The notes under the pieces were generated by a model. That model was not told the origin of the DNA. It saw only the letters and a list, made by a program, of their open reading frames with translations, and ran no database searches. A stretch of 13,254 nt of DNA, from the NCBI GenBank assembly GCA_015521275.1, contig WAOJ01000148.1:1-13254 (forward strand). The letters run 5' to 3'. The translations under genes and the position numbers were made by a program. Source of the DNA: Desulfurococcales archaeon (GTDB lineage Archaea > Thermoproteota > Thermoprotei_A > Sulfolobales > Ignicoccaceae). Positions 430 to 13,254 of this stretch are shown here, piece by piece. The number at the start of each line of letters is the position of its first letter. Within the stretch, counting starts at the first letter, position 1.

Positions 430-443
430 GACTCTTCACCCCC

Positions 444-1064
444 TTAGACCCAGTCCCAAGGTGCGTAGAACTTGGTTGTCTGCTTTAGCGCGTTTAGGGT
501 TGCCTTGGCGAAGTTGTGGGTGGTCCTAGTTTCGCCCTCGGTGTGAGTCCACACGTCTTGAATTCCGGCGTACTTCAAGACAGTCTTGGCCACGTCACCG
601 GCTACTAGGCCGGTTCCTCTGGGGGCTGGCTTTAGGATTACCTCAACACTTCCGCTCTTACCTCTAACGGTGAAGGGTACGCTGTGTGGCTCACCACAAG
701 TGCACTCCCAGCTTCCACAGCCTCTCCTAACCGGAACTATGTTCAACTTCGCGTTAGTCACAGCCTTTTGAATGGCGAACCTCATTTGCTTGGCCTTGCC
801 CATTCCTAGGCCCACTATACCGTTCATGTTGCCAACAACTACTAGCACCCTGAGCCTCGTTATCCTTCCAGCATCGGTAACCTTCTGAACCAAGCTGACG
901 TTTAGGACTTCGTGCTTCAAGTCGGGGACCAAGTAATCGACTATTTCAGGCTCCAATATCGGTAGGTTCTTTTCGAATAGCTCGTAAATACTCTTTATCT
1001 TCCCCTCCTTAACCATTCTACCTACTCTTGTCCTAGGGACCCATTCTTCCAAGCTCACTGACAT
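444..1064 (-). CDS. rps5: 30S ribosomal protein uS5
   Basis: Small-subunit protein that contributes to decoding accuracy and lies at the mRNA entry side. The 206-residue length fits archaeal S5. The N-terminal double-stranded RNA binding-like part shows [20 protein letters not shown] (about 87-106). The C-terminal part shows [14 protein letters not shown] (about 143-156), the family signature, and the protein ends at YAPWDWV. The start at ATG 1064 is supported by a GGGGGTG site a few bases upstream, inside the 21-base gap after uL18. It lies between uL18 and uL30 as in other archaeal spc operons. Nothing unusual was seen. Confidence 0.97.
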
Positions 1065-1085
1065 CTTTCAACACCCCCGGCGCCT

Positions 1086-1688
1086 TCATTGAGTGGCTTT
1101 ATAGTCTTCGATAATGCGGTTCTTTACCTCCTCGAAGTGTTCTGGGTACTTCTCCGGTTCGAAGCCCTTTTGTAACAACGTCGCAAACCTCTTGCGGTAC
1201 TCTTCTGGATTCTCGGCCTTCAGCTTCTCAGCGTATTGGGCTATGTGTTCACCTTTGATCCTCTCTTCTGAGGGCACTACCTCCTCTCCCACGGGCACTT
1301 CCAAACCCACGTCGTTCGCAGCCTTTATGGCTGCAAATACCCTAGCGCCCTTTGTAGCCTTGTGAAGGCCTATGTCTGGAGCAGCGTACTCTATCCCGGC
1401 CTTCTTCGCTCTTAGAGCGGCTAACAAGCCGGTCAAGTAGACGGCGGGCAACGAGTTACCGGAGCCCTTCCAGCCGTACTTCTTCTCCAGCTCTCTGGAG
1501 TGTGCGGCTGCCACTACCTTATCTCCCTCCGGCGCGAACTGGATCACTTGGACCCAGACGTACTTGTTGGTCTTCCTAACCACGAATCTGGGGTGTTTGC
1601 TCAGTACCATCCTGTACCTCTTATGGTAGTTGGTCTTACCTTCCCTCCTTCTCCTCCTCGGAACCTTATACCTAGGTCCGTGCGCCAC
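1086..1688 (-). CDS. rpl18: 50S ribosomal protein uL18
   Basis: 5S rRNA-binding protein of the large subunit. The 200-residue product begins [19 protein letters not shown] and contains the [12 protein letters not shown] and [16 protein letters not shown] stretches of archaeal and eukaryotic L18/L5. It also has [21 protein letters not shown] in the middle, and a charged C-terminal extension typical of the archaeal form. The start is GTG at 1688, one base after the eL19 stop (TGA at 1692-1690). Its ribosome-binding site is a repeated GGTGAGGTGA inside the end of eL19, so translation is probably coupled. It is part of the spc operon tail. Confidence 0.97.
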
Positions 1689-1689
1689 C

Positions 1690-2145
1690 TCACCTCACCT
1701 CAATACCATACCTCTCCTTCAAGTGCATCTTAAGGGAGCTCAAGCTATCGAACATTCCGCCCTTGGCCTTCATGTACAGTTCTCTGTACGTCTTCCTATC
1801 TATTATATCGTGATCCCTCAAGTACCTCAAGAATCTCCTTATCTTCCTTATCCTGTACATCCATGCCTCCTTGGGGTCTTGCCTAGCGGTGGCTTTGCCC
1901 TTCCTCTTCCCGTAGCCCCTCCTCCTTCCCTTCTTCCTTTGTTCATGCCTCACTTTCCACCTAGCTCTGGAATTACCCTTCTCGGGCTCAACCTTTATTA
2001 CTCCCTTCTTTATGAGCTTTCTCACGTCCTCCTTGGAGACGACCTCTCCTACTTCTTCGAGCTTCCTATGGTCAATCCATATTCTGCTCTCCCCTACGCC
2101 GAGGACCTCCGCCGCGAGCTTGGCGACCTTGTCGGCCCTCATCAC
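1690..2145 (-). CDS. rpl19e: 50S ribosomal protein eL19 (L19e)
   Basis: Archaeal/eukaryotic-specific large-subunit protein, 151 residues, the usual archaeal length. The N-terminal part reads [20 protein letters not shown] (about 6-25). The very basic central helix has [16 protein letters not shown] (about 82-97), followed by [19 protein letters not shown], which is characteristic of L19e. The start ATG at 2145 overlaps the eL32 stop in an ATGA. A strong AAGGAGGTGA site sits eight or so bases upstream, within eL32, so translational coupling is likely. Confidence 0.97.
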
Positions 2146-2591
2146 TTCTTCACCTCCTTAACGTTGGGATTGGCCACCCTTATGCCCAGCTCTTGTGCCT
2201 TTTTAATTATCTCTAGTCTCTTCCTCTTCCCCACAGAACTGGCTATGTATACTATGTGTTTATTCTTATCGACCTTTTCTAAGTCCTTGACGTTGTGGAC
2301 TATTATGGGCTCTAAGCCGCTCGGATGGAGACCTCTAACCTCCTTTGGGGTCCTATAGCCTATCTTGACTATTGGGGGATAGCCTTTCAATTGTAACCTG
2401 CTTTTATTGTCGTTGCCCTTGGGTTTCCTCCACTTGTAGCCCCTCTCCAGCCTCCAGTACCTCCACCAGTGATACCTTATGAACTCCGGTAAGTCGTTCC
2501 TTATCTCAACTGCCTTCTTCATTGCCTTCCTCTTCTTCCTTATTTCTTTGAGTACTTGCTTCCTCTTTTCCATTATCTCGTTCAAGTTCAT
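2142..2591 (-). CDS. rpl32e: 50S ribosomal protein eL32 (L32e)
   Basis: Archaeal/eukaryotic-specific large-subunit protein, 149 residues. The core carries FIRYHWWRYWRLERGYKWRKP (about 37-57), PPIVKIGYRTPKEVRGLHPSG (about 72-92) and the C-terminal HIVYIASSVGKRKRLEIIKKA, which together identify L32e. An N-terminal stretch of about 35 lysine- and arginine-rich residues is somewhat longer than in minimal archaeal forms. The start ATG at 2591 shares one base with the uL6 stop (TAATG), with a near-perfect GGAGGTGAT site just upstream in uL6. Confidence 0.97.
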   Translation of the reverse strand: MNLNEIMEKRKQVLKEIRKKRKAMKKAVEIRNDLPEFIRYHWWRYWRLERGYKWRKPKGNDNKSRLQLKGYPPIVKIGYRTPKEVRGLHPSGLEPIIVHNVKDLEKVDKNKHIVYIASSVGKRKRLEIIKKAQELGIRVANPNVKEVKK

Positions 2592-3151
2592 TATGCCATC
2601 ACCTCCTTCTGGTAAATGTATATACCATCCATGAACACCCTGCGATCGAAGTCCTTTATTTTGGTAGCTTGTTCTATATTAGCAGCCGTCTGAGCTACCT
2701 TTTCGATGTCTATTCCTTCTATGACCAAGTCCCTACCTTGAACCTTCACGGTAACTCCAGGCAAGATCTTGGCTATCCTGGGGGCTTTCTCTCCTATGAA
2801 GTTGTGTATTTCAACTCTGTCTCCAACTATTTTGACGTTTATAGGGAAGTGCGAGAATATGATCTTCATTTTATACCTCCAACCCTTGCTCACTCCGGTT
2901 ATCATGTTCTTTATGTGCGCGGCTACAGTGTTCACCAGAGCCTTCCTCTTCCTGTTCGCGAAGAACGTCTCTACCAGGACAAACTCCTTCCCATCCTTCT
3001 CGAACTTTCTAATCCTGATGCCCTTTGCGTGCGAGAAGTCCCTCTCCAGCTCTCCCTTGGGACCCCTCACTCTGACCTTGGGACCCTCTATCTCGACGGT
3101 CACTCCCTCTGGTATCTCAACGAGTGAGTGGACCCAGACTGCTTTGGCCAT
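2591..3151 (-). CDS. rpl6: 50S ribosomal protein uL6
   Basis: Large-subunit protein near the factor-binding site, 186 residues, made of the two repeated L6 domains. The first domain reads IPEGVTVEIEGPKVRVRGPKG (about 13-33). The second holds INVKIVGDRVEIHNFIGEKAPR (about 104-125) and the VTVKVQGRDLVIEG strand pair. The start is ATG at 3151, with a short leader. In most archaea uS8 directly precedes uL6; here there is a 92-base gap and then aIF1, so uL6 appears to be the first gene of this operon, served by its own TATA-like element at about 3186-3192. Confidence 0.97.
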   Translation of the reverse strand: MAKAVWVHSLVEIPEGVTVEIEGPKVRVRGPKGELERDFSHAKGIRIRKFEKDGKEFVLVETFFANRKRKALVNTVAAHIKNMITGVSKGWRYKMKIIFSHFPINVKIVGDRVEIHNFIGEKAPRIAKILPGVTVKVQGRDLVIEGIDIEKVAQTAANIEQATKIKDFDRRVFMDGIYIYQKEVMA

Positions 3152-3185
3152 AATTCGGTTCCCCGGAGGCGAGGACCAATAGGGG

Positions 3186-3192
3186 ATATTAA
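3186..3192 (-). promoter_or_regulatory. Probable TATA element for the uL6 ribosomal operon
   Basis: Read on the minus strand the 92-base gap upstream of uL6 contains CCCTTAATATCCCC, with TTAATAT centred near 3189. A start site about 25 bases downstream would fall near 3163, giving a leader of about 12 bases before ATG 3151. This matches the short leaders common in Crenarchaeota. It is a pattern judgement only. Confidence 0.45.
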
Positions 3193-3235
3193 GGGATTGT
3201 TCATGTAGCGATTAACAAAGCCTTACTCATAAATC

Positions 3236-3242
3236 AAAAAAA
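3236..3242 (-). terminator. T-run terminator after aIF1
   Basis: The minus strand has seven consecutive T residues one base after the aIF1 stop codon, followed by GATTTATGAG. Archaeal RNA polymerase terminates at T-runs without needing a hairpin, so this probably ends the aIF1 transcript and separates it from the uL6 operon promoter about 45 bases on. Confidence 0.5.
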
Positions 3243-3243
3243 C

Positions 3244-3579
3244 TTAGCCGACGATGACTATGTTCTCCTCGGGGTAACCCATCTCTACCAGCAGCTCCTT
3301 CACCCTATCCCTGTGATCTCCTTGTAGTTCTATCTTGCCGTTCTTCACCGTACCCCCAGTCGCAAGTTTGCTCTTCAGCTTTTTCGCGAGAGCCTTCATC
3401 CTCTCATTATCCAAGTTTAGGCCCTCGATGATGGTTACTTCTCTGCCCCACTTCCTCTTCTCTACCTTTATCTTTATTAGCATCTGGTTCTCCATCATTA
3501 GTTGCTCGCATAGCTCTGGTGGCAAGCCTCCACAAACGGAGGGGTCTAGCGTCCCCATCTTCAGCCCTTCGGTTATCAC
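3244..3579 (-). CDS. Translation initiation factor aIF1 (SUI1 family)
   Basis: Archaeal homologue of eIF1/SUI1, which binds the small subunit and polices start codon choice. The SUI1 core is unmistakable: [12 protein letters not shown], then [20 protein letters not shown] and [18 protein letters not shown] before the terminal IVIVG. Two starts are possible: GTG at 3579 (111 residues) and ATG at 3558 (104 residues). The palindromic TTTTAAAA at 3594-3601 predicts a transcript start near 3570, downstream of the GTG, so ATG 3558 is the better choice. The N-terminal zinc site of the family (as I recall, CxxCGLPxxLCxC) is half lost: [14 protein letters not shown] keeps two cysteines and has an extra glycine. 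In many archaea aIF1 sits between uL29 and the Rpp29/uS17 genes; here it directly precedes uL6. Confidence 0.93.
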
Positions 3580-3593
3580 AGGCTAATGTTATC

Positions 3594-3601
3594 TTTTAAA
3601 A
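3594..3601. promoter_or_regulatory. Palindromic TATA element shared by aIF1 and rpoP
   Basis: TTTTAAAA is its own reverse complement and lies between the divergent aIF1 and rpoP genes. Start sites about 25 bases to either side would fall near 3622 (plus) and 3572 (minus). Leaders would then be about 10-13 bases to GTG 3634 (rpoP) and ATG 3558 (aIF1). This makes the outer starts (GTG 3579 on minus, ATG 3586 on plus) unlikely because they would not be transcribed. Confidence 0.45.
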
Positions 3602-3633
3602 TCTTAACGGAATGGGTTCGAAGGGTCTGGAGG

Positions 3634-3798
3634 GTGTCGGCTGAAAAGGAGGTCTTGTACAAATGTGCTAGGTGCGGTCATATAGTAACGAAGAGCGAAC
3701 TAGAAAGCATGGGACTTGGCATAAAGTGCCCCAACTGTTATTATAAGATTTTATATAAGGTAAGAACGTCCGGCAGTGTATGCGTGAAGGCGGTCTAA
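3634..3798 (+). CDS. rpoP: DNA-directed RNA polymerase subunit P (Rpb12-like zinc ribbon)
   Basis: Small zinc-ribbon subunit of archaeal RNA polymerase, equivalent to eukaryotic Rpb12, which stabilises the Rpb3/Rpb10-like subassembly. From GTG 3634 the product is 54 residues. It has VLYKCARCGHIV, then IKCPNCYYKILYKVR, giving two CxxC pairs that bind one zinc, and a basic tail ending VCVKAV. The spacing and the CPxCxYKILYKVR ending match archaeal RpoP (about 45-50 residues). The frame is open back to ATG 3586, but that start lies upstream of the probable TATA element, and the family has no such N-terminal extension; TTG 3655 would also be possible. It diverges from aIF1 and is followed at once by a candidate guide RNA. 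Confidence 0.9.
   Translation: MSAEKEVLYKCARCGHIVTKSELESMGLGIKCPNCYYKILYKVRTSGSVCVKAV
3749..3757 (+). promoter_or_regulatory. TATA-like element inside the 3' end of rpoP
   Basis: TTTTATATAAGG inside the rpoP coding sequence is the best-looking TATA box in this part of the window. A start about 25 bases on would be near 3780, just before the rpoP stop and about 25 bases before the first C-like box of the candidate guide RNA. The bases also encode conserved residues (KILYK), so it may be coincidence. Confidence 0.3.
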
Positions 3799-3803
3799 GC
3801 CGG

Positions 3804-3857
3804 ATGATCGTGTCTTCGATCTCTGAAGGATGATGAGTGTAGCCCGCGAGTGACTCA
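3804..3857 (+). ncRNA. Candidate box C/D guide sRNA
   Basis: The gap after rpoP shows the archaeal C/D arrangement in order. There is a C-like box ATGATCG (3804-3810, two mismatches to RUGAUGA), a 12-base first guide, a perfect D' box CTGA (3823-3826), a 3-base spacer and a perfect C' box ATGATGA (3830-3836). A second guide GTGTAGCCCGCGAG (3837-3850) and a weak D box follow (GTGA at 3850-3853 or CTCA at 3854-3857). The second guide is complementary to CGCGGGCUACAC; GGGCUACAC is highly conserved in 16S rRNA near E. coli position 1220-1230, so 2'-O-methylation there is the predicted job. No rRNA match could be recalled for the first guide. The weak outer boxes and lack of a clear terminal stem limit confidence. 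Confidence 0.45.
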
Positions 3858-3898
3858 AAAAGAAAAAAAAATGTAATGGGAAGGAGGTCGTATGCGAG

Positions 3899-4501
3899 TT
3901 GAGAAGTGCTACCGTTAGGGTTGGTGTCCAGCTCTCGAAACAGTTGGACGCTCAGAGGATGGTAGATTACGCAGCTACCAAAGGTCTGATAACATTTAAG
4001 GTTTACCCTCGCGAGACAGGTTTTGACATAATTTCTCCCGAACCAGGGTTGGTGGTGGTCAGAGGATTCGAGAACGAGGTTGAGTACAAACTCTATATGA
4101 CGAACGACGCATCAACGCTAACCATAATAATGTATTTCAACAAGAGTATAATGCCGGCCAAATACTTGGCAGAAATGTTAGAACTTCTGAGGGCTGGAGG
4201 CGCTTCTGAAAAGGATATCATGGCTTCGGAAGCCTCTGTCGTTGTATATGAGGAAAGGGCACTGCCTACCTTTGCGACTACAAAGAAGGAGTATTTGGGC
4301 GAGGCAAGAGTAAAGGGCTTGACGATATATATTAGTAACGGTATGGTTGTACTAACCCCGATAAATAATAATAGCGATAGGACCATAGTCACTATCATAC
4401 TCAAGGGACCTTGGCCAGACATCAAGAGACGGGTTTTGGTTTTAGACTCCCTAGTCGAGGAAGCCTTTGAGGTGGTTGACGAGTGGAGTTCTCAGAAATA
4501 A
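3899..4501 (+). CDS. Conserved-looking protein of unknown function, 200 residues
   Basis: No family is recognised. The product is soluble, with no signal peptide or membrane segment, and looks like a mixed alpha/beta protein. Strand-like stretches such as GLVVVRGFENEVEYKLYM (about 51-68) and LTIIMYF alternate with a helix YLAEMLELLRAGGASEKDI. A second half ends in VTIILKGPWPDIKRRVLVLD and an acidic tail. The only in-frame start before the body is TTG 3899, with AAGGAGGTCG 10 bases upstream. An out-of-frame ATG at 3892 sits closer to that site but opens only eight codons. It overlaps the next gene by 19 bases and so is probably co-translated with the phosphatase. The long open frame and coupling to a real gene support it as a gene. 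Confidence 0.75.
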   Translation: MRSATVRVGVQLSKQLDAQRMVDYAATKGLITFKVYPRETGFDIISPEPGLVVVRGFENEVEYKLYMTNDASTLTIIMYFNKSIMPAKYLAEMLELLRAGGASEKDIMASEASVVVYEERALPTFATTKKEYLGEARVKGLTIYISNGMVVLTPINNNSDRTIVTIILKGPWPDIKRRVLVLDSLVEEAFEVVDEWSSQK

Positions 4502-5226
4502 AGGTTGTTGCGGCTGACGTCGATGGAACACTGACGGAGGGCATATCCTTCCTTTTGGACATAGACGCGATAAAGGCGTTGAGGGAACTCGAGAAGAACG
4601 GGGTGAAGGTGATACTTGTTTCCGGCAACAGTAGACCAATAACCTTGGCCCTGAAGAGGTACTTGGGTACCACCGCTCCAGTGGTATTCGAGAACGGGTG
4701 TGGAATCTCCGACTTCAACTGGGAAGAGTTGGTCGTAAACGAGGACATGTGTAATAGGAGTAAGGAAGCTGCGGATATGCTCCTTAAAGTGCTAGCGGTT
4801 AAGGGCTGGAGGCCTTCGTGGCAGAACCCTTGGAGGAGGTGCGACTTCGCCTTAAACGCTCCCGGAGGTAAGGTAAGCGAAAGCGACACCAAGAAAGCAA
4901 TTGAGATATTGAAGGAGTTAGGCTTGCTTGACGGAATAGAGGTAATGGCTAGTAGACACGCAATACACGTAATGCCGGAGAAGTGTGGTAAGGGTAAGGG
5001 TGTCGAGAAAGTTGTGGAGAAGCTAGGCTACACCATGAACAACGTCTTGGCTATCGGAGATGCTGAAAATGACATTGACATGATAAAGAAAGCGAGAATA
5101 GGTGTGGCAGTGGCGGACGCTCAGGAGGTATTGAAGAGGGAAGCCGACATTATAGCCCCGGAGCCCGCCGGGAAGGGGTTCGCTTGGGTCGCGAAGAAGA
5201 TTCTAGAGGCGAAGCGCTCGTCATAA
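4483..5226 (+). CDS. HAD-superfamily phosphatase, archaeal phosphoglycolate phosphatase type
   Basis: A 247-residue HAD hydrolase of the Cof/sucrose-phosphate-phosphatase-like archaeal group usually annotated phosphoglycolate phosphatase (2-phosphoglycolate to glycolate). Motif I is AADVDGTLTEG with nucleophile D12 and acid D14, and motif II is LVSGNSRP (S47). A C2-type cap follows between about 80 and 160. Motif III is the lysine in PEKCGKGKGVEKV (K172 or neighbour), and motif IV is AIGDAENDIDM (D193, D197). The start is GTG 4483 with GAGGTGG about 8 bases upstream, overlapping the preceding gene by 19 bases. Exact substrate cannot be told from sequence; other small phosphate esters are possible. 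The end overlaps the DUF6884-like gene by 43 bases if that gene starts at TTG 5184. Confidence 0.88.
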   Translation: MEFSEIKVVAADVDGTLTEGISFLLDIDAIKALRELEKNGVKVILVSGNSRPITLALKRYLGTTAPVVFENGCGISDFNWEELVVNEDMCNRSKEAADMLLKVLAVKGWRPSWQNPWRRCDFALNAPGGKVSESDTKKAIEILKELGLLDGIEVMASRHAIHVMPEKCGKGKGVEKVVEKLGYTMNNVLAIGDAENDIDMIKKARIGVAVADAQEVLKREADIIAPEPAGKGFAWVAKKILEAKRSS

Positions 5227-5756
5227 GCATGTGTAGCAAGAGGAAGGTCCTCGAGAGAGGTCCGGCGAAGTACGTGTATGGAGGAACCCTCATTAAGCTG
5301 GTCTCAAACTTGGTTTTGAAATTAAAGGCCACTTGGCTCATCCTCAGTGCCAAATACGGCTTGATAGGTTCAGATGAGGTAATTGAGAGTTATGACGCTT
5401 ACTTGCCCGAGCTCCCCACTTCAGAGAAGGAACATCTCAAGGAACTTGTTAAGTCCAAATGTAAAGAGTTGAGGGCCAAAGTTATCGTAACCGTTCTGAG
5501 TAAGCATTACGCATCGCTTTTGGACTGTAGCTTGAAGGCAGACGTAGCCATAGTTGTAGGCCACCCACCTCCCAAACTCTCTGCAAAAGAGATCATAAAC
5601 CTTAAACCTAGGGGCATAGGTCAGTATTACAAGGCTTTGAAGGTCCTCGAAGGGTGTGGTGGGAAGCTTGAAGAGTTTGTTCGATGTGTTGAAGAGAGAA
5701 TTGGAAACGGAGACTTTAATTTCGTTGAGCTACAACGAATGGGAGGAAATAAGTAG
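5184..5756 (+). CDS. DUF6884-like protein, CSxRK motif
   Basis: Up to 190 residues. A hydrophobic strand ends in VISMCSKRKVLERGPAKYVYGG (about 13-34). It is followed by WLILSAKYGLIGSDEVIESYDAY (about 51-73), a helix, a VIVTVLSKHYASLL segment and a second Cys-containing helix. The C-S-x-R-K, pA..Y, SAKYGL and YD elements fit DUF6884-type proteins as I remember them; the function is not established. The start TTG 5184 (purine-rich GGGAAGGGG upstream) keeps the whole first strand, whereas ATG 5229 would cut through it. The layout resembles the ArcS-like domain of the radical SAM fusion in this window (PCSxRKPY ... SSPG ... YD), so a related nucleoside- or tRNA-handling role is possible but unproven. 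It overlaps the next gene by up to 101 bases. Confidence 0.7.
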   Translation: MGREEDSRGEALVISMCSKRKVLERGPAKYVYGGTLIKLVSNLVLKLKATWLILSAKYGLIGSDEVIESYDAYLPELPTSEKEHLKELVKSKCKELRAKVIVTVLSKHYASLLDCSLKADVAIVVGHPPPKLSAKEIINLKPRGIGQYYKALKVLEGCGGKLEEFVRCVEERIGNGDFNFVELQRMGGNK

Positions 5757-6192
5757 AGAAATAAGGAACTTTGCAATGCAATGCTCGGAGTCCGTGAATA
5801 GAGAGGCTTGCGACAAGAGGTTGGAAGTGTATAAGGACTTATTCAAGGACTTCATAAAGTATAGGCTGTACAAGTCTCTAAAGTATGAGAACGTCCCAGA
5901 GGACAGCATCGACGCACCCTTCTTAAAAGTAATAGTTAACCTGGTGAAGTCTATGGCTAAGACGTTGGATGAGGTAATAGCCGACGAAAAGGGGAACGTG
6001 TTGGTAGTGGTTAAGAAGAGGATAGAGATAAAGGGAGTCGTGGTTAACCCAGGAGAGGCCGTACTGATGAACTTCATAGAGGCAGTAACGTTGAACGCAT
6101 TGGGATACGTGGATATGTTGAGGATACCCGTAGAGGGCGCGAAGGAGTACGAGTGGTTTAAGACCTCACACCTCCGAGCATCGCATCAATGA
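5656..6192 (+). CDS. Probable GINS complex subunit (Gins15/Gins51-like)
   Basis: GINS joins MCM and GAN/Cdc45 in the archaeal replicative helicase. This 178-residue product has the size and layout of an archaeal GINS subunit with an N-terminal helical A domain. That domain runs from LFDVLKRELETETLISLSYNEW through the helix KDLFKDFIKYRLYKSLKYE to about residue 108. A small beta-rich B domain follows at about 114-157 (LVVVKKRIEIKGVVVNPGEA, then NALGYVDML). A-before-B order indicates the Gins15/Gins51 type rather than Gins23. Identification rests on pattern and is not certain. Starts at GTG 5656, GTG 5659, TTG 5668 or TTG 5677 are all possible; the last fits the family best and would reduce the overlap with the preceding gene. 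The 3' end overlaps the Hel308 gene by 35 bases in convergent orientation. Confidence 0.65.
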   Translation: MVGSLKSLFDVLKRELETETLISLSYNEWEEISREIRNFAMQCSESVNREACDKRLEVYKDLFKDFIKYRLYKSLKYENVPEDSIDAPFLKVIVNLVKSMAKTLDEVIADEKGNVLVVVKKRIEIKGVVVNPGEAVLMNFIEAVTLNALGYVDMLRIPVEGAKEYEWFKTSHLRASHQ

Positions 6193-8209
6193 CCTTCTCT
6201 GCCACCTTCCTACCTATTATCTTCGCTACCAAATCCCTCTTCTGTAATATATCCTCGGGCCCCCTTATGCCGGCCTCCCACAGCTTCCTAGCCCTCACTC
6301 TACCTATGTAGGGGAGCTTTACCAAGCTCACCAGCTCTTCCCTCACGCCATACTTCATTCTGACCTCGAGCTTTCCTAGTTCTTCTGCGTGTCTCTTCAT
6401 TCCCAAGAACTTACAAAGTTCAGAGTAAGCGTGTAAGAGCCAAGAGGCCGTGTCGCTGAAGACCCTCACGTCTCCAGGATAGACCTTGTGCCTCTCAGCT
6501 ATAACGTCGTCCGGTACTTCGTTTATCCAGTCTTCCAAGACCAACGCAACCTTCAACGCTGAGGCCCATAGTTCCAGATCTTCGTGATCCTTTACTATGA
6601 GTTCGTACTCCCTTTCGTAGGCTATTCTCCTAAGCTTCTTGAACTCCTTTGCATATACGCTTCTCTTTGGCATGTCAGGAGTCATGGATATTAAGTGCAA
6701 GTAGCCGAGGACGTGAGCTTTGCCAGCCCTTCTCCTAAGCGCGTCTCTTACTACCTTTGCGCCATAAGGGTCTACGTAGAGCTTGGATATCAATGAACCC
6801 AAACGGGTTGGCGCTAGAGACGGAGCAACGGCCCCCATGTTTATTAAGAACCTCAAGGCTTCCTTGGAGGCTTCCATAGCGTCTTGCGTACCCATAGTTA
6901 TCCCAAAGAGCGTTTTGGATATGAAGTCCTCTAGTTCTTCTTCACTCCTCACGATTCTCCTGGTAATTAAACCCAATATGACCTTCCTCAAGGCCCTAGG
7001 GCTATCCAGAGAACTCTTCACCGGCTCCGGCTCGCCCTTGACGTACTTCTCAAAGACTTCCTTCGCGTTATCCTTAGCTATTAATACAGATATGCCGACT
7101 TTGTCCATTCCGGGCCTCCCTGCTCTCCCGGCCATCTGCTTGTACTCGGAAACAGAGATGGGCTCGCTTATTCCCAAGTCCTTATTGTATCTAGTATACT
7201 TCTCTATGATAACGGTCTTGGCTGGCAGGTTCACTCCGGCCGCCAAGGTCGGGGTAGCGGCTATGAGCCTTATGACCCCGGCTCTGAAACCATCCTCAAT
7301 AATCATTCTGGCCTCGTTCGTTAAGCCCGCGTGGTGAAAAGCTACCCTCCTTTCCACTAACTTGGCTATCTTCTCTCCAAACTCTCCCTCAACTTCTAGC
7401 CTTATCTTGTCGGCCCACTCCTTGCTCTCTGAGTCCGGCTTGAAGTACTTTGAGAATTCCTCTGCTACCTTTTCCGCTTTATTTCTGGTTGGGGCGAAGT
7501 ACAGCACTTGCCCCTCCTTCAAGTACTTGTAGGCGGCGTCTAACGCGGCGTTCCCAGTTACCTTCTCAACCCTCTCCACTCCATCTTCAAAAAGGACCTC
7601 GTATTTCTTAGAATCCATAACACCTTCTCTAAGCTCCACGGGTCTCCAGTCATCGTAGACGAGGTCCGCCTCCAACCATTGGGCTATCTCTTCCAAGTTC
7701 CCGACGGTCGCGCTCAAGCCTAGGAGCTGGACGCCCTCCATCTTGAGCTGTGTCACTACAGTCTCCAGCGTGGGCCCTCTCTCGGGTTCTCCCACGTAAT
7801 GGATCTCGTCCACCACCACTACTCCTAGGTCCTCTAACCACTCCGGCTCATGCCTAAGGATGGAGTCCATCCTCTCGTACGTAGCTATGAGTATTCTCTT
7901 GTCGCCCAGCTGAGGGCTGTGGTAATCTCCTACGCTCAACATAACGTTATCTTTTCCGAAGACTGAGCTCAACGACCTATACTTCTCAAATGCTATGCTC
8001 CTCAAGGGCAACAAGTAGGCGACGTTGTAGTTGTGCTTTAGAGCGTTAAATATAGCCATTTCGGCCACTAAGGTCTTCCCGGAGCCCGTGGGGGCCGAAA
8101 CGAGCAAGTTTTTGAAAGATAGCAGCCCCTTCTCTAAGGCTTTCCTTTGGACGGGGAAGAGGTCCTTTATGCCTCTTGACTTCAGCCACTCCGCTAACTC
8201 CTCATTGAT
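6158..8209 (-). CDS. hel308: Hel308-type DNA helicase, apparently non-canonical start codon
   Basis: Superfamily 2 3'-5' helicase acting on lagging-strand fork structures. Counting from 8209 it has about 683 residues. It shows the Q-motif region LFPVQRKALEKG (18-29), Walker A SAPTGSGKT (38-46), DEIH (134-137), LSATVGN (165-171), ATPTLAAGVNLP (motif V) and QMAGRAGRPGMD (motif VI, from 358). A C-terminal winged-helix/ratchet region and the helix-hairpin-helix VKLPYIGRVRARKLWEAGI follow. The first standard start codon in frame is TTG 8107, which would delete the Q-motif. Upstream the frame is open to a stop at 8284 but contains no ATG, GTG or TTG. ATC 8209-8207, preceded by GGGGATC, gives INEELAEWLKSRGIKDLFP, matching the family N-terminus. 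Either the start is ATC or there is a sequence error. Confidence 0.95.
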   Translation of the reverse strand: MNEELAEWLKSRGIKDLFPVQRKALEKGLLSFKNLLVSAPTGSGKTLVAEMAIFNALKHNYNVAYLLPLRSIAFEKYRSLSSVFGKDNVMLSVGDYHSPQLGDKRILIATYERMDSILRHEPEWLEDLGVVVVDEIHYVGEPERGPTLETVVTQLKMEGVQLLGLSATVGNLEEIAQWLEADLVYDDWRPVELREGVMDSKKYEVLFEDGVERVEKVTGNAALDAAYKYLKEGQVLYFAPTRNKAEKVAEEFSKYFKPDSESKEWADKIRLEVEGEFGEKIAKLVERRVAFHHAGLTNEARMIIEDGFRAGVIRLIAATPTLAAGVNLPAKTVIIEKYTRYNKDLGISEPISVSEYKQMAGRAGRPGMDKVGISVLIAKDNAKEVFEKYVKGEPEPVKSSLDSPRALRKVILGLITRRIVRSEEELEDFISKTLFGITMGTQDAMEASKEALRFLINMGAVAPSLAPTRLGSLISKLYVDPYGAKVVRDALRRRAGKAHVLGYLHLISMTPDMPKRSVYAKEFKKLRRIAYEREYELIVKDHEDLELWASALKVALVLEDWINEVPDDVIAERHKVYPGDVRVFSDTASWLLHAYSELCKFLGMKRHAEELGKLEVRMKYGVREELVSLVKLPYIGRVRARKLWEAGIRGPEDILQKRDLVAKIIGRKVAEKVIDAMLGGVRS

Positions 8210-8281
8210 GCTAGATCCCCATGACTTACGTTCGAACGGAAGTATTACTGAATTTAGGGCAATCCAAAAACTTTCGAAGCG

Positions 8282-8290
8282 CTATTATAG
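8282..8290. promoter_or_regulatory. TATA-like element between hel308 and aroA
   Basis: CTATTATAG on the plus strand (CTATAATAG on minus) is nearly symmetric. On plus it would start transcription near 8311, four bases before the aroA TTG start, which means an almost leaderless message. On minus it would start near 8261, about 50 bases before the proposed hel308 ATC. A second minus candidate, CTAAATTC near 8253, would give a leader of about 20 bases. Confidence 0.4.
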
Positions 8291-8314
8291 CCCTTTCAAT
8301 GTCCGCTGGGAGCC

Positions 8315-9583
8315 TTGAGAGTAAGGGTTGAGCCCTCTATTGCTGAGGGTGAGACTGAAGCCCCTCCCAGCAAGAGCTGGAGCCAGAGGGCTCTGTTCCT
8401 AGCGTTGCTCGCGAGAGGAGAGACCGCTTTGGAGGGATTACCCACTTCCGACGACGTGATGGCCAGCTTGGAAGCGGTCAAGGCGTTCGGTGCGGAAGTT
8501 GTGAAAGAAGGGTCCAAGACTAAGATAATCTCTGAAGGAGAAGCCAAAGTGCCGGAAGACGTGATTAATATGAGGGGTTCCGGAACGGGCGCCAGGATAG
8601 CGATAGGGATAGCCACTACCTTGCCGAAGGGCTTCGGAGCGGTCGTGACCGGCGATCATACCTTAAGGAGGAGGCCCATGGGTCCGGTTATAGAACTCTT
8701 CAACTCCTTGGGGGCAGAGGTTAGGAGCGTTAGAGGCGACAAGCTGCCGGTGGTGGCGTTCGGGCACTTGAGGGGAGGAGACGTCGAAACCGATGGGAGC
8801 GTTACTAGTCAGCACGTGACCTCTGCCCTCATAGCTGGCAACAAGGCAGAAGAAACCTTGAAGGTTAAGATAAGGAGGCCCGTCTCTAGGTCTTACATAG
8901 CCCTTACCGTCTCCGTAGCGAGGCTCTTCGGCTCCAAGGTCTCTTGCAATAATGAGATGAGCGAGTGTTCCGTAAGCCCCTCCGACCTAAAGGCCATAAG
9001 AGCCGAGGTGCCCGGCGATTACGCCTTAGCGGCCTTCCCCCTCGTCGCCGGAGCTTTGACTGGGGGCAGAGTTACCGTAAGGGGCTTGCCCGAGCCGGAG
9101 GGCAAGTTCGGCGACCACAAGGTCATTGAATATATGAGGAGGTTTGGGGCCGAGGTAAGGTATTCCAATGGTTCCGTAACGGTTGAGGGAGGCGAGCTGA
9201 GGGGAGCTACGGTCAACTTGAGGGACGAGCCGGACCTAGCCTTGCCCTTGGCGGCCTTGGCGGCAGAGGCCAAGGGGGAGAGCGTATTAACCGGCTTGAG
9301 ACACCTAGCCTACAAGGAGTCTAACCGGATAAAGACGATAGTGGAGACGCTGAGGTGCTTTGGCGTAAGCGCCCAAGCGGAAGGGGGGAGCATAAGGATA
9401 TGGGGAGGGATAAAGAAGAGGTGTAAGCTTAAGTGTCCCGGAGATCATAGAATAGCTATGATGGCAGCGGTAATGGGTACTGTAATGGGTTCAGAGATAG
9501 ATTCAGCTGAGTGCGTTAGCAAGAGTTGGCCCGAGTTTTGGGACGCAATGGAGACATTGGGGGTGAAGGTGTATGTCGGATAG
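8315..9583 (+). CDS. aroA: 3-phosphoshikimate 1-carboxyvinyltransferase (EPSP synthase)
   Basis: Condenses shikimate 3-phosphate and phosphoenolpyruvate to EPSP in the sixth step of the shikimate pathway; cytoplasmic. The 422-residue product is complete. It has PPSKSWSQRALFLA (K20, S21, R25), MRGSGTGAR (86-94), TLRRRPMGP (116-124), TSQHVTSAL (164-172), RDEPDLALPLAALA with catalytic-region D304, LAYKESNRIKTI (K334, E335, R338) and CPGDHRIAMM (D377, R379). The start is TTG 8315, giving LRVRVEPS exactly where the family begins; ATG 8298 is out of frame. It leads a three-gene operon and overlaps the next gene by 11 bases. No other shikimate gene is present in the window. Confidence 0.97.
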   Translation: MRVRVEPSIAEGETEAPPSKSWSQRALFLALLARGETALEGLPTSDDVMASLEAVKAFGAEVVKEGSKTKIISEGEAKVPEDVINMRGSGTGARIAIGIATTLPKGFGAVVTGDHTLRRRPMGPVIELFNSLGAEVRSVRGDKLPVVAFGHLRGGDVETDGSVTSQHVTSALIAGNKAEETLKVKIRRPVSRSYIALTVSVARLFGSKVSCNNEMSECSVSPSDLKAIRAEVPGDYALAAFPLVAGALTGGRVTVRGLPEPEGKFGDHKVIEYMRRFGAEVRYSNGSVTVEGGELRGATVNLRDEPDLALPLAALAAEAKGESVLTGLRHLAYKESNRIKTIVETLRCFGVSAQAEGGSIRIWGGIKKRCKLKCPGDHRIAMMAAVMGTVMGSEIDSAECVSKSWPEFWDAMETLGVKVYVG

Positions 9584-10034
9584 CAAGTGGAAGATAAGTA
9601 GGAAGGATGGTTATGTTGAGATAAAGAGCGAAGACGTTAGGGTCATAGTTAATCCGACTAAGAACGTTGAAGACGCGGTCTCGGCAGACTTCATAATTCT
9701 CACCTCAAAGCCCAAGAACATCAAGAGGATAGAGAAGAGTTTGGTGGAGAGCGGAGCAATAATTGTTAGCAAGGAGAGGCTAGGGAAGAAGATAGAAGGA
9801 AAAGCGTATGTTGAGTACATAGACAAACACAAGGGCTTAACTGAGGGCCTTTGGGTGAGCAGTACAAAGGACAACAAACTCATGATCTTCGTTGAGGGAG
9901 ATGAAGAATACGTGGTCCTAGTGCCGGACCAAGGCTCGGTGGGGGATGCCCTAAAGGTCTCCGGAGAGGTTTACGATAGAGAACCAAAAAAGGTGGTGAA
10001 CTTAAGGACCTTGAGGGAGGAGGAAGTTAAATGA
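9573..10034 (+). CDS. Uncharacterised 153-residue protein in the aroA operon
   Basis: Not recognised. Soluble and lysine-rich, with a beta-rich start (GYVEIKSEDVRVIVNP, about 13-28). ADFIILTSKPKNIKRIEKSLVESGAIIVSKE follows (about 38-68, quoted in parts: ADFIILTSKPKN, then SGAIIVSKE). Later come LMIFVEGDEEYVVLVPDQGS and a charged tail. The order strand, aD.IilTs.p., helix, gaiIvs, then vvLvPDqG recalls the start of metallo-beta-lactamase-fold proteins of the UPF0173 kind, but the HxHxDH metal motif is absent. If the resemblance is real this is a non-enzymatic derivative; confidence in that is low. The start ATG 9573 has a GGTGAAGGTG site inside aroA, and the stop overlaps the next ATG in ATGA, so it is translated as part of the operon. 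Confidence 0.75.
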   Translation: MSDSKWKISRKDGYVEIKSEDVRVIVNPTKNVEDAVSADFIILTSKPKNIKRIEKSLVESGAIIVSKERLGKKIEGKAYVEYIDKHKGLTEGLWVSSTKDNKLMIFVEGDEEYVVLVPDQGSVGDALKVSGEVYDREPKKVVNLRTLREEEVK

Positions 10035-10687
10035 AGAGAATAAACATAACGATAGACCTCAAGGGCAGCACGCCGACAGAAAGCTTGGCCAAGCTAATTT
10101 CCTTTATATTTAATCCATATAGCATGGCGCTTGCACTAATACCGATATCCATGAGGGACGGTAACGTAGGCTTCTCGCTCTTAGCAATGCTATCGCTCGC
10201 CTTAGCTCCTTTGTTAAAGCACATGCACGGCGTACATAAGGGCTTCTGGGACTTGGACATAAGCGACTACAGGAAGAGACCCTCGATATTACTGCTCTCC
10301 GGTTTGACGGGCATATTGGGCTCCTACTTGTTGTTCTTATTGAATGCTAAGTATACCTCATTGGCCACGCTCCTCTATGCAACTACTGGTTTGGTGGCGG
10401 CTGTGGCTTCAAAGTACGTAAAGGTATCCATACACGTTGCTACGGCGAGCATAACTACGGTGGCCCTCGCCTATACCTTCGGCAAGTGGGTCTTAGCGAT
10501 AGCAGTACCCTTGACAGTGCTCATAGCTTGGTCTAGGTTAAGGCTCAGGGCCCACACGCCCTTAGAGGTGAGCGAAGGGATTTCAGTTGCTGGCGTGGGC
10601 TCCACTTTAGCCTTCATAATAATGATGTACATATTCTCTCATTTTCACGTCGGAGTTTTAACTATCGAACAGACCTTAGGGGCCTAA
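10031..10687 (+). CDS. PAP2-like integral membrane phosphatase (divergent)
   Basis: 218 residues with about six hydrophobic segments (roughly 22-42, 47-64, 85-105, 108-128, 134-150, 152-168, 186-206, some short). Between them lie DISDYRKRPSI (about 75-85), KVSIHVATASITTVAL (about 130-145) and AWSRLRLRAHTPLEVSEG (about 165-182). These line up with the three motifs of PAP2 (type 2 phosphatidic acid phosphatase) proteins: a basic-RP motif, a histidine motif in place of PSGH, and SRx5Hx3D with Glu instead of Asp. It may dephosphorylate a lipid or polyprenyl phosphate. The start ATG 10031 overlaps the previous stop and has a GGAGGAGG site. It is the last gene of the aroA operon; link to aromatic synthesis is not apparent. 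Confidence 0.7.
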   Translation: MKRINITIDLKGSTPTESLAKLISFIFNPYSMALALIPISMRDGNVGFSLLAMLSLALAPLLKHMHGVHKGFWDLDISDYRKRPSILLLSGLTGILGSYLLFLLNAKYTSLATLLYATTGLVAAVASKYVKVSIHVATASITTVALAYTFGKWVLAIAVPLTVLIAWSRLRLRAHTPLEVSEGISVAGVGSTLAFIIMMYIFSHFHVGVLTIEQTLGA

Positions 10688-10693
10688 CATTTC

Positions 10694-10710
10694 ACCTGAT
10701 ACGATCAGGT
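10694..10710. repeat. Perfect 7-bp inverted repeat, possible operator
   Basis: ACCTGAT-ACG-ATCAGGT lies between the PAP2-like gene and the winged-helix gene. It abuts the TATA-like GTTATATGA (10710-10717). A symmetric site touching a TATA box next to a small helix-turn-helix gene suggests autoregulation. It could instead form a hairpin at the 3' end of the PAP2-like message, but no T-run follows. Confidence 0.5.
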
Positions 10711-10723
10711 TATATGAAGACCG

Positions 10724-11014
10724 ATGAGTAAGGGACGTGGGAACCGAAGGTTGAAAGGAAAGAAGGCCCTCATCTTGAAAATATTGAGGGAAGGGCCTAA
10801 GAACACTAAAGAGATTTATGCATTTATGGGTGCTAAGACTGAAAGTCAGAAGGCGAACGTCAGGAAGGTCCTCTCCCATTTGAGGCGGAAAGGCTTGATA
10901 GTGAAGGTCCCCGGCAGCAGTTACTGGGCTATAACTGAGAGAGGTCTGAAGGTCTTGGAATGCTTGGAGGTAATAGAGGAGGTAGAGACCCATGGCGCCC
11001 CCGGCGGGATTTGA
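10724..11014 (+). CDS. Small winged-helix DNA-binding protein
   Basis: 96 residues with a single winged helix-turn-helix: KKALILKILREGPKNTKEIY (about 13-32), SQKANVRKVLSHLRRKGLIVK (about 41-61) and the wing VPGSSYWAITERGLKVLE. It is of the MarR/ArsR-like archaeal one-domain kind, so probably a transcription regulator; no ligand domain is visible. The start is ATG 10724, or TTG 10751 if transcription starts 25 bases after the TATA at 10710-10717. The latter loses only a basic N-terminal tail. The last seven codons (10993-11014) lie on the opposite strand of the tRNA-Arg gene. An inverted repeat directly upstream may be its own binding site. Confidence 0.8.
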   Translation: MSKGRGNRRLKGKKALILKILREGPKNTKEIYAFMGAKTESQKANVRKVLSHLRRKGLIVKVPGSSYWAITERGLKVLECLEVIEEVETHGAPGGI

Positions 11015-11069
11015 ACCCGCGACCACGGGCTCCGAAGGCCCGCGCTCTTCCTGGCTGAGCTACGGGGGC
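10993..11069 (-). tRNA. tRNA-Arg (anticodon TCG), CCA encoded
   Basis: The complete cloverleaf reads from 11069 down. It has acceptor GCCCCCG paired with CGGGGGC, D stem GCTC/GAGC and anticodon stem CGGGC/GCCCG. The loop is CTTCGGA (anticodon TCG at 11035-11033). The 5-base variable region is TGGTC, the T stem is GCGGG/CCCGC with TTCAAAT, and the discriminator is G. CCA follows as part of the gene (10995-10993). No intron is seen. A14 and G15 are present; G15 (position 11055) is the site archaea convert to archaeosine. The 3' end overlaps the winged-helix gene by 22 bases. A TATA-like element at 11092-11103 is well placed to transcribe it. Confidence 0.97.
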
Positions 11070-11091
11070 CCTCGGTCGCTTCTCCTTCCGG

Positions 11092-11103
11092 CTTAATACT
11101 TTA
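11092..11103 (-). promoter_or_regulatory. TATA-like element for tRNA-Arg, possibly shared
   Basis: The minus strand reads CCTAAAGTATTAAGCC, centred about 27 bases upstream of the mature tRNA 5' end, the right distance for direct transcription of the tRNA. On the plus strand the same A/T island (CTTAATACTTTA) could serve the radical SAM gene with a leader of about 30 bases. Confidence 0.45.
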
Positions 11104-11153
11104 GGCCGAGCCATTCATTACTCCTACTGCATTGCCTCTCGAGGTCCAAGTAC

Positions 11154-12482
11154 ATGTGTTGGATTGTAAGAGAGAAGAGCGTCGTAACGAATGTGGGAAA
11201 GTGTTCGTGGGGAAAGTGCATCTTCTGCGGCTGGGGCAAGAGAATGGGCAACGAAACTCCGGAGGAGATCAAGGAGAAGTTTGAGAAAGCGATATCGCAG
11301 AGGCCAAAGAGGCTAAAGGTCTTCACCTCTGGCAGCTTCTTCGACGACGCTCAATTCCCCCCTTGGTTAAGGCTTTGGCTTGCGGATCGCTTGGACAGGT
11401 CTTGTGTTGAAGAACTTCAGTTGGAGAGCTTGCCGGACTTCATAACCTACGAGAAGCTTCAGCCGTTCTTGAGGAGGAGCTATGAGCTAATAATGGCTTT
11501 GGGCTTAGAGGTGGCGGACAACGAAGCTCTAAAGGCCTTAGGCAAGTATCCAGCCATGAGCGTTGAGAAATACGTATCCACTGCTTTAACGCTGAAGAAC
11601 TTGGGAATTAGGGTAAAGACGTACGTTTTGGTTAACCCTCCTATAGAGAATTGGAGGGAGCTATTGCCCAAGACCGTAGATCTCGCTTTGAAGCACTCGG
11701 ACGAGGTAGTCTTGATAAATACTTACCCGCACTCCGAGAGTCCGCTATTCGTAATGTGGGTTCAGGGTAAGTGGAAGCCTTTGCCACCGGAGGAGTTCTA
11801 TGAAGCCGTAAAGCCTTGGCTGGGAGACCCTAGAGTACAAGTGGACAGCAGCAACTTCGCTTTCAGACCCAAGTTCCCCAAGCATATGAGGAAGAAGATA
11901 GTTGGAGCAAATGAACAAGCTCTTTTACATCCCTATTACGAGGTCTGGCAGTACTTCCTAGAACACTTCTACGAGCCGCCTAAGAAGAAGAGGATACTGC
12001 TCTTTGTTCCATGCTCATACAGAAAGCCTTACTATAAGAGCAAGACTTGGAGGGCCATAAGGAGGGCTTTGAGAGAGGTAGGCATGCTTAGAAAGGTTCA
12101 CATGGTAGCGATAAGCTCTCCCGGCGTAGTCCCGGAGGAGTTTGCAGATGAATACCCCTTCAACGCATACGACTGGCCAGAGTGGGAAGAGACGGAGGAA
12201 ATAAAGAAGAAGTACATACAAGTTACTAAGGAAAGGGTGAAGAGGTTCCTAAAGGCTCACGCTAGACACTACGATAGGATCTTGGTTTACTTGAAGCCGG
12301 ACAGCGAGAGCTTCAAGGCAGTTATGGGGGCTTGCGAAGAGCTCGGAATAAAGTGCGAACCTTGTATAAAGGAGGAGCATTACGAAGAGGTGAGGGACTT
12401 CAAGCCTCCAGTGGCCCATCCAAAACTCCTGGAGGACTTGAAAGAGTGCTTGAGGAGGTCCTTGAAGCTCGTAAAGGTTTAG
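11154..12482 (+). CDS. Radical SAM / ArcS-like fusion, probable one-chain archaeosine synthase
   Basis: 442 residues in two parts. Residues 1 to about 270 are a radical SAM domain resembling RaSEA, with C17, C22 and C25 in KCSWGKCIFCGWGK, FTSGSFFDDAQFP (57-69), VEELQLESLPDFIT (85-98) and LVNPPIENW. Residues 280 to about 405 resemble the ArcS catalytic domain, with LFVPCSYRKPYYKSK (283-297) and SSPGVVPEEFADEYPFNAYD (321-340). In Euryarchaeota ArcS adds lysine to preQ0 at tRNA position 15 and RaSEA splits the adduct to give archaeosine, as separate proteins. The TGT-like and PUA parts of ArcS are absent. The cluster motif is CX4CX2C, not the usual CX3CX2C. ATG 11154 is the only standard in-frame start between the upstream stop and the Cys motif. 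It is divergent from a tRNA-Arg gene and ends 5 bases from the next, convergent gene. Confidence 0.85.
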   Translation: MCWIVREKSVVTNVGKCSWGKCIFCGWGKRMGNETPEEIKEKFEKAISQRPKRLKVFTSGSFFDDAQFPPWLRLWLADRLDRSCVEELQLESLPDFITYEKLQPFLRRSYELIMALGLEVADNEALKALGKYPAMSVEKYVSTALTLKNLGIRVKTYVLVNPPIENWRELLPKTVDLALKHSDEVVLINTYPHSESPLFVMWVQGKWKPLPPEEFYEAVKPWLGDPRVQVDSSNFAFRPKFPKHMRKKIVGANEQALLHPYYEVWQYFLEHFYEPPKKKRILLFVPCSYRKPYYKSKTWRAIRRALREVGMLRKVHMVAISSPGVVPEEFADEYPFNAYDWPEWEETEEIKKKYIQVTKERVKRFLKAHARHYDRILVYLKPDSESFKAVMGACEELGIKCEPCIKEEHYEEVRDFKPPVAHPKLLEDLKECLRRSLKLVKV

Positions 12483-12487
12483 AAACG

Positions 12488-13254
12488 CTACTTATTACAG
12501 ATCACCATCTTGGGCTCGGAAGCCTTTACCTTTGCCACAACGGTCAACGTAACCGGCCTGTAACCACTAACCATAACGGTCACGACCTTCCCAGAGGTAA
12601 CCAGTCCGCTTCCGTCACACGGGGCCAGCTTGAAGTACCCTTGAGGCATCCACTTCGTTAAGCCGCCTACGTAAACCGGGTAAGCGCTTATGCTCTGACC
12701 TAGGTAGAAGGTTCCCCCGCCGTTACACGCTACGCTGTAAGTGCCCGGGCCGTAGTCCAGCTCCCTTATTGCGTAACTCTTCAAGTTCAGAGTTATGGTC
12801 TTTGTTATCGCTTTGTACTCGACAACGGTGATTGGCTGGTTTAAGGTTAAACAGCTAACCGTTTTAGTTACGTAGACATTCTTGGTTATAGTGTTAAGCA
12901 CGTTGGCGGTTACAGTCTTGGTCATAGTTTCTAATACGGTGGACGTAGTGTATAAGGTCTTAAACATTGTTTCGGTTACCGTGGTCAAGGTAGTTATGAA
13001 CGAAGTCACAAACTTAGTGAACGTTTGGGTTATGGTTATGAACGTTATGCCGGCGGGCGTTGGGCCAGTGGTGGTCTTTGTAACCTTCAAGTTCCCACAC
13101 TGAAGTAGCGAGTAAGCTATCAAGAACTGGGCAGTGTCATAATAGTCTTCTATGTCTGAGCCGGGGAACGGCGTTATTGCGCCGTTGGGCGTCATGTGGA
13201 GGGCAAGCTCCTTTTCCAAGGGGCTCTTCCCGTACAAGAGCTTCTCCAATGCCG
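12488..13254 (-). CDS. Threonine-rich surface or secreted-type protein, partial (5' end outside window)
   Basis: The frame is open to the right edge, so the true start and any signal peptide are not visible; TTG 13249 is not likely to be the start. The visible 254 or so residues begin with a 55-residue globular-looking piece (PNGAITPFPGSDIEDYYDTA). Next comes a threonine-rich stretch at about 57-130 (counting from 13249) with 29 Thr in 74 residues and hydrophobic residues often spaced 3-4 apart. A beta-rich C-terminal part follows (GTFYLGQSISAYPVYVGG, YFKLAPCDGSG, VTVMVSGYRPVTLTVVAK) ending in ICNK. Five cysteines (51, 133, 175, 211, 251) could form disulfides outside the cell. No C-terminal membrane anchor is seen. 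Thr-rich stalks are common in archaeal exported proteins; the family was not recognised. Confidence 0.75.
   Translation of the reverse strand, partial: ALEKLLYGKSPLEKELALHMTPNGAITPFPGSDIEDYYDTAQFLIAYSLLQCGNLKVTKTTTGPTPAGITFITITQTFTKFVTSFITTLTTVTETMFKTLYTTSTVLETMTKTVTANVLNTITKNVYVTKTVSCLTLNQPITVVEYKAITKTITLNLKSYAIRELDYGPGTYSVACNGGGTFYLGQSISAYPVYVGGLTKWMPQGYFKLAPCDGSGLVTSGKVVTVMVSGYRPVTLTVVAKVKASEPKMVICNK

Follow-up and report, generated by a model that had tools for sequence, protein, structure and literature searches.

The DNA analyzed here, a 13,254-nucleotide stretch of a Desulfurococcales archaeon of the Ignicoccaceae (GenBank assembly GCA_015521275.1, contig WAOJ01000148.1, positions 1 to 13,254; called the window below), carries near its end an open reading frame (ORF; 11154..12482, plus strand, including the stop codon) that joins a radical SAM domain to a DUF5591 domain. 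The ORF is a single frame with an ATG start and zero internal stops, encodes a protein of 442 amino acids (aa), and was matched by Pfam and NCBIfam models. Archaeosine stabilizes archaeal tRNA; how many archaea complete its synthesis is an unsettled question, on which this fused gene, a candidate archaeosine synthase, bears.

The N-terminal, RaSEA-like radical SAM half spans about residues 1 to 243 (11154..11882, plus strand). Pfam places Radical_SAM at residues 17 to 170 (42 bits; cut-off, 29.5), and structure matches cover mainly residues 3 to 243, with 1 of 50 rows covering the C-terminal domain. Within this half lie a C-x4-C-x2-C cluster motif (C17, C22, and C25; residues 17 to 25; 11202..11228, plus strand), the motif FTSGSFFDD (residues 57 to 65; 11322..11348, plus strand), in which S59, G60, S61, and D64 are common with classical RaSEA, and the motif LESLPDFI (residues 90 to 97). 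The C-terminal half holds an ArcS-core DUF5591 domain at residues 269 to 406 (11958..12371, plus strand; Pfam, 67.8 bits; cut-off, 26) with a P-C-x3-K-P-Y-x2-S motif at residues 286 to 296 (12009..12041, plus strand). The stretch PCSYRKPYYKSK corresponds to residues 286 to 297, SSPGVVPEEF to residues 321 to 330, and YPFNAYD to residues 334 to 340. A first-pass annotation had read this frame as a single chain combining RaSEA-like and ArcS-like halves and had named these motifs (FTSGSFFDD, LESLPDFI, and the last three); all are present, both Pfam domains score above their cut-offs, and the C-terminal half, whose comparison with ArcS profiles had been singled out beforehand as a test of that reading, matches DUF5591 and ArcS models.

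The radical SAM half was compared with classical and with separately encoded (split) RaSEA-like proteins. An alignment of 54 fused rows matched 21 classical RaSEA rows (hhalign, 100.0%; E, 3.2e-40) and 12 split radical SAM rows (99.4%; E, 3e-21). C17, C22, C25, G60, S61, E91, G117, E119, K131, and Y157 are conserved in fused, classical, and split proteins alike, and among the 102 aligned fused relatives, C17 and C22 are kept in 101 and C25 in all. The radical SAM tree resolved three clades, namely, fused (support, 95), classical (96), and split (100).

In the DUF5591 half, C287, K291, P292, Y293, and S296 are kept in all 102 aligned relatives and P286 in 99. At residue 299, three past the Ser, 75 relatives have His, 25 have Trp (this protein among them), and Tyr and Phe occur in 1 each. 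We take PC-x3-KPY-x2-S-x2-H to be an ArcS signature; AF0587 carries the same motif letters, and C-x3-KPY-x2-S is absent from seven of seven arcTGT domains. By hhalign, the split ArcS cores were closest to the fused DUF5591 half (E, 6.4e-45), followed by a second DUF5591 type described below (E, 5.1e-20) and the arcTGT C-terminal domain (E, 2.2e-16). Comparison with classical ArcS was made through the NCBIfam and Pfam models and AF0587, the DUF5591 tree being built without named classical ArcS.

A homologue search returned 238 proteins at an E value of ≤0.001, and domain counts and names were taken from 120 listed homologues, 110 of which carry both Pfam domains. The closest named relatives among the matches listed were a Desulfurococcales metagenome-assembled genome (88%) and Ignicoccus pacificus (68%). 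Full-length fusions occur in three of four genomes of the same genus (G002, 64%; G003, 74%; G004, 88%); none was found in the fourth (G001, 81% complete). Named fusion genomes are mostly DPANN (Aenigmatarchaeota, Micrarchaeota, Nanoarchaeota, Diapherotrites, and Nanohaloarchaea), with one each of Altiarchaeota, Desulfurococcales, and Thermoproteales, and an Asgard protein is among the listed homologues. Within the window's phylum (397 sampled genomes), 13 genomes have one frame matching both halves (in G359 it is truncated where the contig stops), G288, the 14th, carries them on two separate contig ends, and a separate ArcS core (E below 1e-30) occurs in 11 more; in the phylum of G036, the fusion was found in 13 of 145 genomes. 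The fused gene is widespread but patchy in archaea and thus not peculiar to the source organism. Source labels of the listed homologues range from "hypothetical protein" and "DUF5591 domain-containing" to "radical SAM protein." Two JGI rows (P0037 and P0087) are already labeled "archaeosine synthase," so an annotation pipeline had drawn the link earlier. Such a fusion did not appear in titles or abstract openings of the literature on archaeosine, RaSEA/ArcS, Gat-QueC, DPANN, Ignicoccus, DUF5591, and 7-deazaguanine radical SAM enzymes, a scope that leaves earlier publication possible.

Among viral contigs, no relative was confirmed. Partial matches came from 10 phage records (5 Sulfolobus virus, 3 Vibrio phage, and 2 Synechococcus phage), none covering 80% of the query. 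The Sulfolobus viruses STSV1 and STSV2 gave partial DUF5591 matches, one of them within or next to a feature annotated as queuine tRNA-ribosyltransferase. In a tblastn search of plasmids with an arcTGT query, the named features were tRNA-guanine transglycosylases.

Genome context was surveyed in 23 fusion-bearing genomes from outside the genus (G031 to G053), 18 bearing DPANN or Altiarchaeota names and 5 named only "archaeon." The fusion is the sole DUF5591 protein in all 23, each of which has one TGT match. That TGT lies on the same contig and ≤5 kb from the fusion in 13 of the 23 (expected, 0.36) and ≤200 bases from it in 6; the P value of 2e-18 for this proximity assumes independence of genomes that are not fully independent. 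QueF scored above its cut-off in 0 of 39 genomes (27 fusion genomes), the sensitivity of PF14489 to QueF-like proteins not being established, and two sub-threshold QueF matches resemble GTP cyclohydrolase I by eye. A separate RaSEA match above 26 bits was found in none of five genus genomes; outside the genus, apart from the two genomes considered below, extra RaSEA matches stay at ≤58 bits, in frames of roughly 270 to 540 aa. In all four genus relatives, arcTGT is matched strongly, and the QueC frame, at 261 to 289 aa, is by its length too short for Gat-QueC. In the source genome, an arcTGT fragment (30 bits) lies at the end of a contig (C117:1-231), and no strong QueC match was found.

The unfused counterpart was characterized by inspecting the stretch around the separate ArcS core in 14 genomes (order relatives and other Thermoproteota). 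The cores are 223 to 254 aa long and the RaSEA-like partners 209 to 267 aa; the two genes adjoin or overlap in 12 of the 14 (RaSEA-like first in 7, core first in 5), and lie apart in G020, whereas the stretch inspected in G017 showed no partner. PC-x3-KPY-x2-S-x2-H is present in 12 of 12 aligned split cores. The split cores leave no room for a TGT-like part; in the two tested, DUF5591 alone was above the Pfam cut-off; TIGR01210 gave no match name to the one split radical SAM protein tested. As the first-pass annotation had proposed, neither a TGT-like part nor PUA was detected in the fused protein (Pfam, E ≤1), nor were they in six relatives (E ≤0.01); its coupling of this loss to the fusion does not stand, since the split cores are also short, which makes trimming and fusion separate features.

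All 12 Ignicoccaceae rows group in one clade (100) of the radical SAM tree. The DUF5591 tree places Ignicoccaceae within a set of 26 (95) that comprises Thermoproteota fusions, the Asgard row, and four others, with a support of 68 for Ignicoccaceae alone; the 54 fused rows fall on one side of a branch only at a support of 0, and a single fusion origin thus rests on the radical SAM tree (95). Transfer from a Nanoarchaeum-type symbiont to Ignicoccus, an idea that arose from the DPANN dominance among the hits, received no support, and a clade of Ignicoccaceae plus the three sampled Nanoarchaeota-type rows was rejected (radical SAM tree, p-AU 0.00014). A contig labeled Diapherotrites (L018) joins the Thermoproteota fusion of G394 (radical SAM tree, 100; DUF5591 tree, a set at 99), a grouping that would reflect either a transfer or a mis-binned contig.

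Given the observed architecture, homology to both partners, motifs, arcTGT neighborhood and co-occurrence, QueF absence, and rarity of separate RaSEA, the fused gene is likely to encode a bifunctional archaeosine synthase that places lysine onto preQ0-tRNA and then frees archaeosine in a radical SAM step. What we infer from the sequences are the two reactions and the order in which they run, the substrate, what the motifs do, and the benefit of being fused. A separate arcTGT would first insert preQ0 at tRNA position 15. The C-terminal ArcS core would then join lysine to the preQ0 nitrile to give preQ0-Lys, with C-x3-KPY-x2-S predicted to lie at or near the lysine-transfer active site, and the N-terminal radical SAM domain would use a 5′-deoxyadenosyl radical to cleave the lysine part of the adduct, leaving archaeosine in the tRNA. 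The single chain may hand the preQ0-Lys adduct from one site to the next. Such a trimmed enzyme would consist of two catalytic cores, without the TGT-like and PUA parts of ArcS and the Cys-rich C terminus of RaSEA, and arcTGT would choose the site. PMC11298593 describes Thermococcus kodakarensis ArcS as transferring lysine even to the preQ0 nucleoside, with the D-arm speeding transfer; a core without TGT-like and PUA parts can thus plausibly work, since preQ0 itself marks position 15, and the first-pass statement that tRNA must be recognized in a different way claims more than is required.

Several points weigh against this assignment. Kinship of both halves to RaSEA and ArcS is far beyond chance, yet every NCBIfam whole-protein cut-off is missed: the top match, RaSEA TIGR01210, scores 86 bits (cut-off, 212.15), ArcS NF040592 64.1 bits (cut-off, 440), and ArcS NF053620 55.6 bits (cut-off, 600), with MnmL/YtqA (34.2 bits; cut-off, 180) behind them, and TIGR01210 scores of the surveyed fusions reach at most 138 bits. 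A CxxC...CxCxxxW auxiliary Cys pattern is present in 18 of 21 classical RaSEA versus 0 of 54 fused rows, and the expected motif His is Trp299 in this protein. Phylogenetic placement rests on the radical SAM and DUF5591 trees, both of which are quick trees. A separate RaSEA above the cut-off (217.7 bits) and another at 190.4 bits occur in G041 (L147 and L148, on C58 and C61), and G050 has one at 139 bits. No archaeosine-pathway gene is among the scanned neighbors of the fusion, so local context lends the function no support in the window. Absences in the source genome, a 0.9-Mb draft of 193 contigs (the window being C148), carry little weight because it is only 56.84% complete. A QueC match above 30 bits is missing in 20 of the 23 fusion genomes outside the genus (of the remaining 3, two have full QueC and one has a contig-end piece), which suggests either that preQ0 is taken from elsewhere or that the genomes are incomplete.

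The missed cut-offs, the Trp for the motif His, the separate clade in the radical SAM tree, and the missing QueC would also suit a 7-deazaguanine radical SAM enzyme with another outcome, one whose DUF5591 half links preQ0 to an amino acid other than lysine or to an amine, or whose substrate is not tRNA, giving a product other than canonical archaeosine at position 15; the top-ranked solved structure, tied with viperin, is queuine lyase, which acts on the free 7-deazaguanine base. We consider this improbable, as arcTGT stands beside the fusion in 13 of the 23 genomes, S59, D64, K131, Y157, and other residues are common to classical RaSEA, and no alternative archaeosine route was found in the genomes surveyed. 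Measured against the curated models, the fused protein falls outside both TIGR01210 RaSEA and NF040592 ArcS; its function is probably like that of the two, and we assign it to a distinct minimal fused subfamily, because the RaSEA and ArcS cut-offs are missed and the TGT-like, PUA, and auxiliary-Cys parts are absent. One side observation concerns G041, which has the fusion and two RaSEA-like genes without a second DUF5591; foreign contigs or other functions are possible there.

A further point against a bifunctional synthase comes from the genus itself. All four relatives encode a second DUF5591 protein (PCSKVKPYRDSFMY; L069:728-1525, L070:688-1464, L071:696-1478, and L072:650-1426) as well as a separate, weakly TGT-like protein of about 296 aa (L085:340-1227, L086:1-858, L088:385-1290, and L089:503-1390), which leave a separate ArcS-like activity possible in these organisms. 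The first-pass expectation that no other route would be encoded withstood the searches for QueF (above the cut-off in 0 of 39), for QueC (genus frames too short for Gat-QueC, judged by length), and for separate RaSEA (none above 26 bits in the genus), and is weakened by this second DUF5591 in four of four relatives. Since the second type keeps PCx3KPYx2S, only one half of the fusion might be active, with, for example, the two extra proteins transferring lysine in Ignicoccaceae and the fusion performing the radical step. Such a division of labor appears very unlikely, given that all 23 non-genus fusion genomes lack a second DUF5591, that the fused half keeps the motif in 102 of 102 relatives, and that the second type also occurs in G006 and G014 (in the latter as an adjacent DUF5591/TGT-like pair, L084:850-1458 and 1433-2299), where the P0001 search gave no radical SAM half. 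An artifact of assembly or annotation that fused two neighboring genes, conceivable in so fragmentary a draft, can be dismissed, because the single-contig genomes G002 and G003 carry the same full-length fusion, which excludes misassembly, and 110 of 120 listed homologues have both domains.

Elsewhere in the window, a tRNA-Arg gene lies upstream of the fusion ORF on the opposite strand (10993-11069), and a frame on the minus strand follows downstream (12488-13249). Also upstream are an EPSP synthase, a PAP2 match below threshold, and a small frame whose winged-helix matches are likewise sub-threshold. Farther away, a DUF6884 protein (5184-5756, plus strand; 53.4 bits) has an SMCSKRK stretch near its N terminus. 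On contig C180 of the source genome, a 306-aa protein (L087:563-1480) matched TGT and DpdA weakly (24.4 and 28.9 bits) and differs from the TGT-like protein of the Ignicoccaceae relatives. The arcTGT fragment shares the short contig C117 with a 1,039-aa protein (L098:1471-4587) that has a GGDD motif and by eye is Cas10/Cmr2-like.

Beyond the single gene, we lean slightly toward a minimal archaeosine system, encoded as a fusion (Ignicoccaceae, other Thermoproteota, an Asgard, and many DPANN) or as an adjacent pair (order relatives and other Thermoproteota) and uncharacterized in the literature searched, that would perform the whole conversion of preQ0 to archaeosine without a dedicated tRNA-binding domain. 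It would fill part of the gap expressed as "most Crenarchaea lack ArcS," and many DPANN would run on preQ0 made elsewhere; the fusion points to a possible dependence of DPANN archaea on host preQ0. It also suggests that classical ArcS could do without its large TGT-like and PUA parts. If the synthase assignment is true, it gives a function to a family mostly labeled "DUF5591 domain-containing" or "radical SAM protein," and a small chain with both catalytic cores would be a good minimal object for studying the ArcS/RaSEA mechanism, including passage of the adduct.

Among known systems, QueF-like and Gat-QueC, the alternative archaeosine routes of Crenarchaeota (PMC5485725), have the same predicted end product, archaeosine; they differ in that QueF was above its cut-off in 0 of 39 genomes and the QueC frames of the genus are too short for Gat-QueC. 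RaSEA (TIGR01210) resembles the fused half in its S-G-S-x-x-D and, in some classical members, C-x4-C-x2-C motifs, whereas the fused half is joined to DUF5591, forms its own clade, lacks the C-terminal CxxC...CxCxxxW, and scores 86 versus 212 bits. ArcS (NF040592) shares the DUF5591 domain with C-x3-KPY-x2-S, but the fused protein has no detected TGT-like part or PUA and scores 64 bits against a cut-off of 440. AF0587 (PDB 2q07), for which the PDB entry gives no function, has the ArcS-core domain with the same motif in a 306-aa chain without a TGT-like domain, and differs in that the radical SAM domain is absent. The split minimal pair, too, sets a short ArcS core, the closest DUF5591 kin of the fusion, beside a short RaSEA-like gene; it differs in being encoded by two genes, with a radical SAM protein that forms a distinct clade (100).
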